Assembly: GCF_000473325.1 (NCBI RefSeq)
Contig: NZ_KI421513.1
Span: forward strand, 859,217-923,216
Source of the DNA: Leisingera caerulea DSM 24564
GTDB taxonomy: Bacteria; Pseudomonadota; Alphaproteobacteria; Rhodobacterales; Rhodobacteraceae
Length of the DNA: 64,000 bases
Direction: 5' to 3'
The notes under the pieces were generated by a model, which ran no database searches, had not been told where the DNA came from, and worked only from the letters and a program-made list of their open reading frames with translations. This document shows, piece by piece, positions 5,785 to 60,033 of this stretch (positions are counted from its first letter, which is position 1; every line of letters begins with the position of its first letter). A program made the translations under genes and the position numbers.

Positions 5785-5861
5785 TGGCGGACCGAGGAGG
5801 ATTCGAACCCCCGACCCCTTGATTCGTAGTCAAGTACTCTATCCAGCTGAGCTATCGGTCC
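5785..5861 (-). tRNA. tRNA-Arg (anticodon ACG)
   Basis: A 77-base cloverleaf on the minus strand with an encoded CCA end. The acceptor stem pairs GGACCGA with TCGGTCC, followed by discriminator G. The anticodon stem CTTGA/TCAAG encloses loop CTACGAA, giving ACG at 34-36, which would normally be edited to inosine and read CGU/CGC/CGA. The T arm contains the GGTTCGAATCC signature. It stands alone, with the histidine-kinase operon end about 100 bases upstream of it. Confidence 0.96.
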
Positions 5862-34499: not shown

Positions 34500-35579
34500 T
34501 CAGGCCTCGGCCAGCTCGTCCTGTGCGGCGGCCGTGCGGCGCTTGGCAACCGCTGCGGCCAGATGCTCCAGCTCTGCCACAGTCTCCTCCCAGCCCAGGC
34601 AGCCGTCGGTGATCGACTGGCCGTAGGTCAGCTCCCCCTTGCCCAGATCCTGGCGGCCCGCCACCAGGTGGCTTTCGACCATCACGCCGGTGATGCGGCT
34701 GTCGCCCGCGGCGATCTGGCCCGCCACATCGCGCAGCACCGCAGGCTGGCGCATCGGGTCCTTGCCGCTGTTGGCGTGGCTGGCGTCGATCATCACATGG
34801 CCGCGGATGCCGTCCTTCTCCGCCAGCTTGCAGGCCGCATCGACAGAGGCCGCGTCATAGTTGGTGCCGCCGCCGCCGCGCAGGATCAGGTGGCCGTCAG
34901 GGTTGCCGCTGGTGGCCGCAATCGCCGCGCGGCCCGATTTGGCCAGCGCCATGAAATGATGCGGGTGCGCCGCCGAGCGCACCGCGTCCACTGCGATCTG
35001 CACATTGCCGCGGGTGCCGTTCTTAAAGCCCACGGGGCAGCTGAGGCCGGAGGCCATTTCGCGGTGGATCTGGCTTTCGGTGGTGCGGGCGCCGATGGCG
35101 GCCCAGGCCACAAGGTCAGAGATGTACTGCGGCACCGCGGTGTCCAGGAATTCGGTGCCGACCGGCAGGCCCAGGGCGTTGATGTCCAGGCACAGGCGGC
35201 GCGCCAGCCCCAGCCCTTCGTTGATGCGGAAGGAGCCGTCGAGGCCCGGATCGTTGATCAGCCCTTTCCAGCCGCTGATGGTGCGGGGTTTTTCGAAGTA
35301 GACCCGCATCACGATCTCCAGCTCACCGGCGAGCCGTTCGCGCAGCGGCGCCAGGCGGCGGGCATAGTCCATCGCCGCCTTGGGGTCGTGCACCGAACAG
35401 GGGCCGACGACCGCAATCACACGGTCGCTGCGGCCGTGCAGCACATCCTGAATGGCGGTGCGGCTGGCCAGCACGGTATCGGTCACTGTTGCCGTTGAAG
35501 GCAGCTGCGCGGCGAGATCCTCGGGCGAGATCAGTTCCTGCATACCGGTGATGCGGAGGTTTTCGGTCTGGGGTGTCAT
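34500..35579 (-). CDS. aroG: 3-deoxy-7-phosphoheptulonate (DAHP) synthase, class I
   Basis: 359 residues, the usual length. It condenses phosphoenolpyruvate and erythrose-4-phosphate at the entry to aromatic amino acid synthesis. Signatures are VVGPCSVHD, VYFEKPRT, GWKGLINDP, AWAAIGARTTES, GFKNGT, LRGGGGTNYD and DASHANSGKDP. A leader peptide rich in Tyr, Phe and Trp and an intrinsic terminator lie between its promoter and its start, so expression is probably attenuated by aromatic amino acids. It is otherwise a single gene. Confidence 0.95.
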   Translation of the reverse strand: MTPQTENLRITGMQELISPEDLAAQLPSTATVTDTVLASRTAIQDVLHGRSDRVIAVVGPCSVHDPKAAMDYARRLAPLRERLAGELEIVMRVYFEKPRTISGWKGLINDPGLDGSFRINEGLGLARRLCLDINALGLPVGTEFLDTAVPQYISDLVAWAAIGARTTESQIHREMASGLSCPVGFKNGTRGNVQIAVDAVRSAAHPHHFMALAKSGRAAIAATSGNPDGHLILRGGGGTNYDAASVDAACKLAEKDGIRGHVMIDASHANSGKDPMRQPAVLRDVAGQIAAGDSRITGVMVESHLVAGRQDLGKGELTYGQSITDGCLGWEETVAELEHLAAAVAKRRTAAAQDELAEA

Positions 35580-35624
35580 GGGTCTGCTTCCTTGGCGGGA
35601 GGCCCTGGGCGCTGCGGCGGATAC

Positions 35625-35654
35625 AAAAAAACCGCCTGCGGGCTGCGGGCGGTT
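35625..35654 (-). terminator. Attenuator terminator upstream of aroG
   Basis: On the minus strand AACCGCC (35654-35648) pairs with GGCGGTT (35636-35630). The loop is GC-rich, and a run of seven T (35631-35625) follows. It lies between the leader peptide stop (35687) and the aroG start (35579). Alternative pairings of the GC-rich loop could form an antiterminator. Confidence 0.85.
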
Positions 35655-35686
35655 GGTGGTATCCTGGTGCGTTCCGATGTCCTAGC

Positions 35687-35764
35687 TCAGAATGCGCTGA
35701 CCCCTCCGTCCGCCATGTGGCGCGGATAAAAGAAATACCAGAATGCGGCATAGGTCCGGGTCAT
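35687..35764 (-). CDS. Aromatic leader peptide of aroG (attenuation)
   Basis: A 25-codon frame starting at ATG 35764 and ending at TGA 35687. Residues 5-13 read YAAFWYFFY, so seven of nine are aromatic and all three aromatic amino acids occur. Ribosome stalling here would report Tyr, Phe and Trp supply and control the downstream terminator. The probable -10 ends only seven bases before the ATG, so the mRNA would be almost leaderless, as for the trp leader of Sinorhizobium. A longer upstream reading of the same frame (to 35875) crosses the promoter and is not used. Confidence 0.8.
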   Translation of the reverse strand: MTRTYAAFWYFFYPRHMADGGVSAF

Positions 35765-35771
35765 GGACCGG

Positions 35772-35800
35772 ACGCTAGCGGAGATTCGCGCCCCTGTCAC
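35772..35800 (-). promoter_or_regulatory. Probable promoter of the aroG leader
   Basis: On the minus strand GTGACA (35800-35795), a 17-base spacer and TAGCGT (35777-35772). Transcription would begin about 35765-35764, at the leader peptide AUG. Confidence 0.6.
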
Positions 35801-35813
35801 CCCGGAAAATGGC

Positions 35814-35846
35814 AGCAGGCCCTCCACACGGAAGGGCCTGCTTTTT
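35814..35846. terminator. Intrinsic terminator after the chemoreceptor gene
   Basis: AGCAGGCCCT and AGGGCCTGCT form a 10-bp stem around CCACACGGA. On the minus strand, where it would end the chemoreceptor transcript, it is followed by GCCATTTTCC. On the plus strand TTTTTG follows. It therefore could act in both directions and insulates the aroG promoter. Confidence 0.75.
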
Positions 35847-35859
35847 GTGCCGGCTCGGG

Positions 35860-38265
35860 TCAGAAATCCTGCCACAGATCGCGGGCAGCATTGCCCTCTG
35901 CCGGGGGCACGGCTGCGGCAGCAGGCGCCGGGCTGGCCTCGATCTCCCAGTCATCGCCGCCGTGGGCAGACGGCGCTGGTGCCGCCGGGGCCGCAGGCGC
36001 GGCGGTGCTGCCGTCCACCTGGAAGCGCGCCACCAGTTCGGCAAGCTTCACGGCGTCGGTGTTCAGCAAATGGCCTGCGGCGGTCGCCTCTTCGACCATC
36101 GCGGCGTTCTGCTGGGTCACCTGGTCCAGCTGGGTCACTCCGGTGTTGATCTCAAGCAGGCCGGTGGATTGCTCCGCCGCGCCCTCGGCAATCTCCGACA
36201 CCAGCTGCGAGATGTGGCTCACCCGGCCGACGATGGACTGCAGCGCCTCGCCTGCGCGGCCGACCAGATCGACGCCTTCCGCCACCTGCCGCGAGCTGTC
36301 GCCGATCAGCGTCTTGATCTCCATCGCCGCATCCGAGGACCGCTGCGCCAGAGCGCGCACTTCGGAAGCGACCACCGCAAAGCCGCGGCCGGCCTCGCCC
36401 GCGCGGGCAGCCTCGACGCCTGCGTTGAGCGCCAAGAGGTTGGTCTGGAAGGCGATGTCGTCGATCACCGAGATGATCTGCGAGATCTTGTTGGAGCTGT
36501 CCTCGATGCCGCTCATGGCCGCCACCGCATCCTGCACCACCTCGCCGCTGCTTTCGGCCTCCTGCCGGGCCTCCCGCACCGTGGTTTCCACGTTGCGGGC
36601 GCCGTCGGCGGCGGAGCGCACGCTGGCGGTCAGCTCGTCGATGGCGGCAGCGGTCTCCTCCAGCGTCGCGGCCTGGCTTTCGGTGCGGTGCGACAGGTCG
36701 TCGGAGGCCTGGCTGATCTCAGCCGCGCCGTTGCGGATGCTGGACGCGGCGCCGATCACCTCCTGCACGGTGGCGGTGAGGTTGTCGATGGAGCCGTTGA
36801 AGTCCGCCCGCAGCTGTTCGTATTCCTCCGGGAATTCTTCCGCGATGCGGATGGTGAGGTCGCCGTGCGACAGGCGCGACAAGCGCTCGCTCAGCTCCCG
36901 GACCACCCCGGCCAGCTCAGCGTCCTTGCTTTGCGCCTTCTGCTGTTCGGCTTCTTGCATCCGCACCAGCTCATCGCGGAACTTCTCCAGCGCGCGGGCC
37001 ATGTCGCCGACTTCGTCGCCGCGCTCCTGGCCGTGGATCTCGACTGCATTGTTGCCCTCGGCCAGGCCGCGCATCGACACCACGATGCGGCGGATGCCGG
37101 ACGCGATTCCGGAGCTGGTGACCAGCGCCATCACCGCGCCGATCAGAATCGCCGCGCCGATCGCGGCTGGGATCATGATCCGGGTCTGTGCTGCGATCTC
37201 ATCGCTGGCGGCGCGGCGGGCGGCCATGGTCTCAGCGCCGCGGGCCTGCAGCGAGGCCAGGGTTTCGCGGAAGCGGTCGAAGTACGCCTTGCCCTGCCCT
37301 TCGGCGACCCGGTCGGCCATGTCGTCCATGGTGGCGGCGCTGCCGATCACCCGGCGCAGCTGCAGCATCGGCACCACCACGTCATTGCGCCAGTTGCCGA
37401 TGATCTCTGCCACCGTGTTCAGGCGGTTGGTCTGCATCAGCTTGTCGGTGAAAGCCAGGCGCAGGTCTGCGAGGATCTCGTTGAAGCGTTCGTTGCCTTC
37501 CATATAGGGGTCCAGAAACGCCCGGTCGCCCGCCAGAAGGAAGCCGCGCACGCCGGTTTCCATGTCGACGGCGGCGGCCAGCAGGTCCTTGGCGGTGCTG
37601 ATCACCTCATGGGCTTTCTCCACTTCCTCCAGCGAGGCGCTCAGATAGTCCGGATCGGCAATCCCGGCATTGACCAGCGAGGAGAAAATGTTGCGGCGGT
37701 TGGCAAGCTCCACCTCCTCGTCCGCGATGATCTTGCCGACCTCGGCGCGGAACTCATCAAACAGGATCCGGCCCTGGGACTTTTTTACCGCGTCCGCCAT
37801 GTCGTTCATGCTCATGGCGTCGCCGATTTCCCGGCGCAGCTCGATGGCACCGGCGGCCACATTCTCCTGCCAGCCGGTCAGAATCTGCTCCGCCTCCTGC
37901 AGGTCCGCCATCATTTGGGGATCATCCGCCGCCAGGGCCTTGAGCGCCGTCAGCGCCTCAGCCAGGTCGGCCTGGCCAGCCTCATAGGGTTCCAGAAACT
38001 TCTCCTGCCCCGCCAGCAGGTAGCCGCGCAGCCCGGCTTCCATGTCCAGCGCCGCCACAGCCAGCGATTGCGCCTCGCTGAGGATCCGGCCGGTGTGATC
38101 GACCGCCTTGGAGGTCTTCTCCATGCGGCCCAAGTCCACAACAGCCATCACGCCGACGCCAAGCACCAGCAGCAGGGGGAACAGGGCCACCGTAACGATT
38201 TTCGTTTTCGTACTGAGGTTTGCCAGTGAGAACCGCCTGGCTGCGGAAGTCTTCTTCTTTTTCAT
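35860..38265 (-). CDS. Methyl-accepting chemotaxis protein with two CHASE3-like sensor modules
   Basis: 801 residues. TM1 is at 23-45. Two similar CHASE3-type helical modules follow, the first with [21 protein letters not shown] and the second with [23 protein letters not shown]2 is near 378-400, then HAMP and the signalling domain with the hairpin tip around [34 protein letters not shown] (split here across two known blocks). The C-terminus DLWQDF fits an xWxxF tether for CheR/CheB. It is a cytoplasmic-signalling chemoreceptor with unknown ligand. ATG 38265 was taken in preference to GTG 38268. No che genes are adjacent. Confidence 0.9.
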
Positions 38266-38376
38266 CACGTCCGATCCGGAGCTAAAGGGATGCGGCAGTG
38301 AAATCAGAATAAAATTACGAATCTCTTTCGCACAAAAAGTGAATCCTAAACATCCTGCGATTGTCGTCGCGTAACG

Positions 38377-59900: not shown

Positions 59901-60033
59901 GCTTTCTGTCTTCCGTTTAGCGTGCAGGCCCTTAGGTTCTTGTCTTTGGACCCGCTATGTTTAAGGCCCCCGTAGGTGCCTGAGTTATAGGGCCCCGAAG
60001 GTCCCCAGGTTCGAACATCCTGACAAACGTAAC

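Follow-up and report, generated by a model that had tools for sequence, protein, structure and literature searches.

The aroG gene of Leisingera caerulea DSM 24564 is very probably controlled by a ribosome-mediated transcription attenuator of the trp/phe type, as judged from its sequence and from comparison with related loci. The leader frame and its conservation, the terminator, a covarying antiterminator, the spacing of these parts, and the absence of a Shine-Dalgarno sequence before the leader together point to such an element. The locus lies in a stretch of 64,000 nt (the window), and all of its parts are on the minus strand (Table 1). A sequence-only reading of this DNA had placed a 25-codon frame with YAAFWYFFY between a promoter-like pair and a T-run terminator, 5' of a DAHP synthase gene, and had proposed that aroG is attenuated by way of an aromatic leader peptide with an intrinsic terminator. 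All of these parts were located, and the proposal agrees with the conserved leader, terminator, covarying antiterminator, spacing, and folding described below. The antiterminator (GGCGG/CCGCC) was absent from that reading and is named here.

Table 1. Parts of the aroG leader locus, with positions in the window
Feature	Position	Strand	Remarks
-35 box GTGACA	35795..35800	-	Located in sequence; [TC]GACA in relatives' leaders
-10 box TAGCGT	35772..35777	-	Ends 7 nt 5' of the leader AUG
Leader ORF, 25 codons, predicted near-leaderless, ATG 35764 to TGA 35687	35687..35764	-	Encodes MTRTYAAFWYFFYPRHMADGGVSAF
Control codons Tyr5-Tyr13 (YAAFWYFFY)	35726..35752	-	7/9 codons aromatic
Segment 1 (CCGCGCC)	35719..35725	-	Can pair with segment 2 in untranslated RNA (fold); covariation unconvincing
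Segment 2 (GGCGG-AC-GG), within the leader ORF	35706..35714	-	Antiterminator left arm
Segment 3 (AACCGCC)	35648..35654	-	Shared: 5' arm of the terminator, right arm of the antiterminator
Segment 4 (GGCGGTT) and T-run, intrinsic terminator	35625..35636	-	Conserved hairpin
Shine-Dalgarno-like AAGGAAG of aroG	35587..35593	-	Sequence; SD-like common before relatives' aroG
aroG, class I (AroFGH-type) DAHP synthase, 359 aa	34500..35579	-	TIGR00034 E=1e-150; PF00793

Proposed mechanism

The transcription start, the stalling, the response to starvation, and its effect size are those that we infer in the following model. RNA polymerase would start at the leader AUG or within a base or two of it, and a ribosome would translate the leaderless 25-codon frame during RNA synthesis. 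When charged tRNA for Phe or Tyr (here also Trp) is short, the ribosome would stall in F-W-Y-F-F-Y and cover the RNA up to just before GGCGG, so that GGCGG could pair with CCGCC as an antiterminator. The terminator would then be blocked and aroG transcribed. A ribosome that reaches the stop codon would instead cover GGCGG, the terminator would form, and an RNA of roughly 140 nt would be released. Untranslated RNA is also predicted to fold with GGCGG occupied, leading to termination by default.

The leader locus in the window

The locus has a short frame rich in codons for the products of the pathway, as in classical attenuators, and translation of this frame is predicted. Seven aromatic codons in nine were found in only 1 of the 106,902 stop-free 9-codon stretches in the six frames of the window. 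This count, together with the lack of such a leader at class II DAHP synthase loci (see below), rules out an aromatic run by chance. The spacer between the -35 and -10 boxes is 17 nt, and the leader frame is 107 nt from aroG. The predicted intrinsic terminator (AACCGCC...GGCGGTT and the T-run, 35654 to 35625) lies between the leader frame and the first gene, again as in classical attenuators, and its hairpin ends 50 nt from the aroG start.

No covariance model of Rfam release 15 matched at the leader at the gathering score, nor at an E value of ≤1 in positions 35500 to 35900. No Pfam or NCBIfam entry matched the leader peptide, and a homologue search with the peptide, which is too short as a query, gave nothing. 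A simple scan for promoter and terminator consensus sequences, which are of the E. coli type, called nothing in positions 35560 to 35880, and such a generic scan was rejected as decisive for this locus. Taken by themselves, the window sequences had unremarkable folding energies (weak z scores of -0.98, -0.50, and -1.60). The support for the attenuator is comparative and does not come from the single sequence.

An inverted repeat was seen by eye at about 35815 to 35841, between a chemotaxis-like gene (35860 to 38268, minus strand) and the aroG promoter. It has a T-run on its plus-strand side and was not called by the consensus scan; it is possibly a terminator insulating the aroG promoter. Elsewhere in the window, Rfam models matched an L2-Alphaproteobacteria ribosomal protein leader (59903 to 59981, minus strand) and a tRNA (5788 to 5861, minus strand).

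Distribution of the leader among aroG loci

AroG was searched for in the family (149 genomes, 9 with a match), in the genus (21 genomes, 21 with a match; own genome included in both), and in named genome contigs, from which the best 80 of 583 loci were used. Among these 80 named records the closest match was AroG of L. aquaemixtae, with 97% identity. The pooled set had 109 loci, with some places represented twice; L038, which has only 46 nt of upstream sequence, was set aside, leaving 108 usable loci. The sequence-only reading had suggested an alignment of aroG leaders from relatives as a check. Such a leader was present at 100 of the 108 loci (99 found by script, L056 by eye), and in the aligned representatives (see below) the aromatic codons were conserved and the antiterminator covaried. 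None of the eight loci without a leader (L067, L074, L076, L077, L078, L085, L087, and L089) is labelled Alphaproteobacteria; L077, caught by a finder that required Trp, was dropped as a false hit.

The 99 leaders found by script gave 89 unique sequences and, at an identity cut of 85%, 38 representatives (alignment A1). All counts with n = 38 refer to these representatives, which come from a set whose finder demanded Trp, so the presence of Phe, Tyr, and Trp in 89/89 unique leaders is partly by construction. The first scan and the later locus readings did not require Trp.

Some of these loci had peculiarities of their own. At L087 (Coxiella MAG NORP135), a frame ending in SFYAYRFSNFFYFS lies just 5' of aroG without GC-rich arms and is possibly an unrelated aromatic leader. 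Two records filed as Nocardioides marinus and Mycobacterium sp. (L014 and L035) each have an AroG and a leader of alphaproteobacterial type; these assemblies are probably misnamed or contaminated.

In an even draw across the class, class I AroG (E ≤ 1e-60) was found in 9 of 337 genomes, and the nine strongest matches to a covariance model built from A1 (47.6 to 104.7 bits) were in the same nine genomes. AroG was seen in the fetched stretch at eight of these loci; the ninth (L114) runs into the end of its contig. A further 57 genomes matched the model at E ≤ 0.001, but weakly (33.9 bits or less) and mostly in part; these look like terminator-only matches, and tblastn found no AroG in L119 to L146.

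In a draw across the phylum, AroG (E ≤ 1e-60) was found in 225 of 398 genomes. Among 36 loci taken from the class and phylum draws (L148 to L183), the leader was present in 33 by script and in L153 by eye, and none was found at L148 (157 nt upstream) or L175. Further upstream stretches chosen by family (n = 40) had a leader in 12 cases and none in 28. Outside the class, leaders were found in families f189, f209, f214, and f220 and, before one AroG type, in f186; for f189 the sole clue to placement is its neighbour Pseudoxanthomonas in the AroG tree. No leader was found at the one to few loci seen for each of f181, f183, f184, f192, f193, f196, f200, f212, f217, f218, f219, f222, f227, and f228, and additional AroG copies in f186 and f209 were without one. 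The f186 copies of one type (L224, L225, and L243) have an aromatic leader, e.g., MSSRIAFDFFYFWFSVPGGREASA, and a CCGCC..GGCGG terminator; another copy in this family (L226) has no aromatic leader. The absence of the leader at 8/108 loci, at L175, and in 28/40 further stretches indicates that aroG can do without it.

Class I and class II DAHP synthases

Within the class, class II DAHP synthase is widespread (45/58 genomes) and class I AroG rare (9/337). The genome of L. caerulea also has one class II DAHP synthase, with no aromatic leader within 350 nt upstream. A similar scan of class II DAHP synthase loci found such a leader at none of the 30 that have 200 nt or more of upstream sequence; a weak match came from one further locus, whose upstream sequence is only 181 nt long. 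The result for the 30 loci rules out the leader as a property of DAHP synthases generally.

This distribution also bears on the possibility that the hairpin merely ends a short upstream transcript, or belongs to a small RNA gene, and that aroG has its own downstream promoter. The 50 nt between the hairpin and aroG leave space for a second promoter, and the leader by itself is a complete short gene. However, this explanation is very improbable, since it gives no reason for the aromatic codons, for the near-fixed spacing of a segment that competes with the terminator, or for the association with genes for class I as opposed to class II DAHP synthase.

Probable leaderless start of the leader frame

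An SD-like sequence was found before the leader in 2/38 representatives versus 27/38 before aroG, and the distance between promoter boxes and leader start codon varies little, so that leaderless translation of the frame is likely. This favours the near-leaderless AUG of the sequence-only reading. The motif [TC]GACA has its first base at -37 to -34 relative to the start codon in 24/38 representatives and TA...T at -13 in 15/38, and GAC[AT] is found within -40 to -27 in 30 of the 32 representatives that are not from Xanthomonadales-type records. The start codons of L004, L021, L027, L047, L048, L080, and L086 were set by hand; those of L004, L021, L027, and L086 were set by promoter distance and are therefore not independent evidence for that distance. 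As for column information upstream of the leaders, position -1 (0.86 bits) alone exceeded the most extreme shuffle (0.77 bits); the best promoter column had 0.67 bits, and the mean of the shuffle maxima was 0.29. Leaderless starts are reported in other alphaproteobacteria: trpL of Sinorhizobium meliloti is described as leaderless (PMC10117765, PMC7298713), and for Bradyrhizobium japonicum 320 start sites are reported 0 to 10 nt before an annotated start codon (PMC4842269).

Terminator and antiterminator

A terminator was present in all 38 representatives, two of them (L008 and L073) set by hand. By script, some terminator was found in 88/89 unique leaders and the conserved hairpin in 87/89, the match in L008 being a different hairpin. 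In the antiterminator, GGCGG of the leader frame (leader nt 51 to 55) pairs with CCGCC of the terminator 5' arm (nt 113 to 117), with flanking pairs.

Across the 38 representatives, 79.8% of antiterminator cells pair, 21 cells are changed on both sides (6.7 in shuffles), and the covariation score is 0.149 (0.064 in shuffles). For pairing, both-sides cells, and covariation score, 0 of 500 shuffles were as high, and slid versions of the antiterminator reached at most 57.8% pairing and a score of 0.083. Not all measures stand out, as five pairs have a both-sides change and 76/500 shuffles reach that number. Three of the nine pairs never vary and the core GGCGG/CCGCC is nearly invariant, so the covariation rests on the flanks and one core pair. 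This core pair (51:117) is G-C in 34 representatives, A-U in 3, and G-U in 1. Rhodobacter/Paracoccus-type leaders have AGCGG opposite CCGCU, so that this position stays Watson-Crick in the antiterminator and is U-G in the terminator. In 36/38 representatives the leader with its actual codons pairs more strongly with the terminator arm than its synonymous recodings do on average; the median rank is only 0.21, probably since the Ala-Gly codons by themselves dictate much of GGCGG. On this comparative evidence, the locus has an antiterminator that is predicted to exclude the terminator and is backed by covariation, as classical attenuators do.

The hairpin between segments 1 and 2 is present in the fold of the window sequence. 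The counts do not single out the hairpin as drawn, and covariation is higher when it is shifted by 3 columns. A 1:2 protector hairpin, as in trp, is thus a prediction of the fold, and the reading of it as proven was rejected.

Ribosome position and fold outcome

The gap between the last aromatic codon and GGCGG is 11 nt in 27/38 representatives, so that a ribosome with the last aromatic codon in its A-site leaves one free base before GGCGG in these 27. The effect of ribosome position was calculated by a fold scan at equilibrium, in which the ribosome footprint was assumed and base pairing of the terminator arm was scored whatever its upstream partner. The mean probability of terminator-arm sequestration was 0.62 to 0.70 for A-sites ranging from the last aromatic codon back to the eighth codon before it, and fell to 0.46, 0.32, and 0.29 at the next three codons. 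Stalls at 9 to 14 codons before the last aromatic codon gave equally high sequestration (0.62 to 0.71), indicating that the scan marks the end of control and not its beginning. For the window sequence, a stall at Tyr13 gave the antiterminator and a ribosome at the stop codon gave the terminator. By folding and spacing, the position of the ribosome on the control codons is thus predicted to decide between the two structures, which is a further mark of a classical attenuator.

Amino acids that the leader may sense

Aromatic codons make up 249 of the 978 codons in the 38 leaders (Phe 105, Tyr 103, and Trp 41), and Phe and Tyr are present in every leader seen. Counted back from the last control codon (site 0, aromatic in 38/38 by definition), sites -3 and -2 are aromatic in 38 and 37 of the 38. 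Pairwise single-base differences in the last seven control codons comprised 520 synonymous third-position differences versus 841 others, 722 of which were at position 2, the position that exchanges Phe and Tyr. By this sequence comparison, codon differences keep the aromatic residues.

The sequence-only reading had suggested that the leader gauges the total aromatic supply. This fits the L. caerulea genome and its nearest relatives; family-wide, Phe and Tyr are in every leader seen but Trp comes and goes. At least 11 leaders of relatives are without Trp (L056, L113/L151, L115/L154, L116/L149, L117/L152, L153, L163, L179, L186, L187, and L196). In one alphaproteobacterium (G444, L153/L118), the leader, read by eye, is reduced to MNAARTLSARFYPRSIAGGIRGA, with Phe-Tyr alone close before the antiterminator arm. 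Mapped on the 63-row AroG tree, the absence of Trp takes six changes to explain, of which at least four are forced. Trp as a fixed part of the code is ruled out by the Trp-less leaders and these changes.

The control signal may therefore in effect be Phe and Tyr only, with the Trp codon tolerated and giving little signal. Trp is missing from the leaders listed above, down to the Phe-Tyr of L153, the last control codon is Tyr in 23/38 and Phe in 15/38 representatives, and aroR of Corynebacterium glutamicum is described in a review as responsive to limitation for Phe and not for Tyr (PMC11802643). However, L056 is the only one without Trp among the 100 leaders at the 108 usable loci, and Trp is within the run in 38/38 representatives, which were taken from the finder that required it. 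In the window fold, moreover, a stall at Trp9 gives the same sequestration as one at Phe8 (0.76 each). With this evidence on both sides, a signal limited to Phe and Tyr is a serious possibility that we consider somewhat less than even.

Antitermination is predicted for stalls throughout the run and is lost a few bases past the last aromatic codon, so any single aromatic shortage would switch on AroG. A broader reading can be put forward tentatively, and we hold it to be a little under even: the leader would be an OR gate for a lack of any one of the three aromatic amino acids, class I AroG would be the on-demand partner of an unattenuated class II DAHP synthase, and gene and switch would have moved jointly as a unit among proteobacteria. 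If the OR gate is true, a shortage of one aromatic amino acid turns on the entry enzyme of the shikimate pathway.

History of gene and switch

In the AroG tree of 63 rows, 54 leader-bearing rows and two without a leader (L067 and L175) are on one side of the branch marked with a star. Rhodobacterales AroG is found in two separate places in the tree, both with leaders, so from these sequences the gene and its switch seem to have moved together. In a tree of 52 AroG sequences, including 20 more from other families (33 with and 19 without a leader), five changes of leader presence are forced. Leader presence as one clean AroG clade is ruled out by these changes, at least five in number; there may have been a single origin of the leader with later losses.

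Comparison with known systems

The trp and pheA attenuators of E. coli work by alternative RNA structures, and the trpL and pheL leaders have Shine-Dalgarno sites. The aroG leader resembles trpL and pheL in that transcription would be attenuated through ribosome position on control codons, but these leaders, as described, each respond to one amino acid and precede a different gene; the DAHP synthase genes of E. coli are reported to be controlled by TyrR and TrpR (PMC11802643, PMC11878033).

The attenuator of aroR-aroF in the actinobacterium C. glutamicum, for which a response to Phe limitation is reported (Neshat et al. 2014, cited in the review PMC11802643), is a functional analogue of the aroG leader as far as its description allows comparison. 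Both have consecutive aromatic codons before a DAHP synthase gene and ribosome-mediated attenuation, reported for aroR and predicted for aroG. By that description, aroR has Phe-Tyr-Phe, whereas the aroG leader has 7/9 aromatic codons including Trp, is predicted to be near-leaderless, and carries the antiterminator arm inside its frame. The element uORFC-13-1 before aroF of Acholeplasma likewise combines a terminator with a short frame carrying one or more Phe codons before a DAHP synthase gene. It differs in that its Phe codons may be as few as one and a ribosome-binding site is described for it, and its 24 examples are listed from Acholeplasma and environmental sequences only (PMC8632094).

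The alphaproteobacterial trpL/rnTrpL of S. meliloti has a leaderless attenuator transcript from the AUG of a short frame, as is predicted for the aroG leader. It differs in that it is described as responding to Trp only and controlling trpE, and trans action is reported there (PMC7298713, PMC10117765). Given the same predicted leaderless architecture, and since rnTrpL is reported to start with the AUG of trpL and to act in trans (PMC7298713), the released aroG leader RNA or peptide might also act in trans, like rnTrpL/peTrpL. This is unlikely, because the linker between the leader stop codon and the terminator has few conserved columns.

A literature search gave no recognizable description of an attenuator of a proteobacterial aroG, and a prior mention stays possible; the available text of PMC11109978, PMC2965389, PMC4833913, PMC1262725, PMC4117421, and PMC4287350 does not mention the element. 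The attenuator proposed here would provide cheap RNA-level control of the first step of aromatic synthesis in many proteobacteria with class I AroG. Natural leaders with and without Trp, down to Phe-Tyr alone, give a clear way of testing how a single leader combines signals from several amino acids. Set beside the systems above, the aroG leader is a new and widespread example of the ribosome-mediated attenuator, a class of mechanism that is already known.
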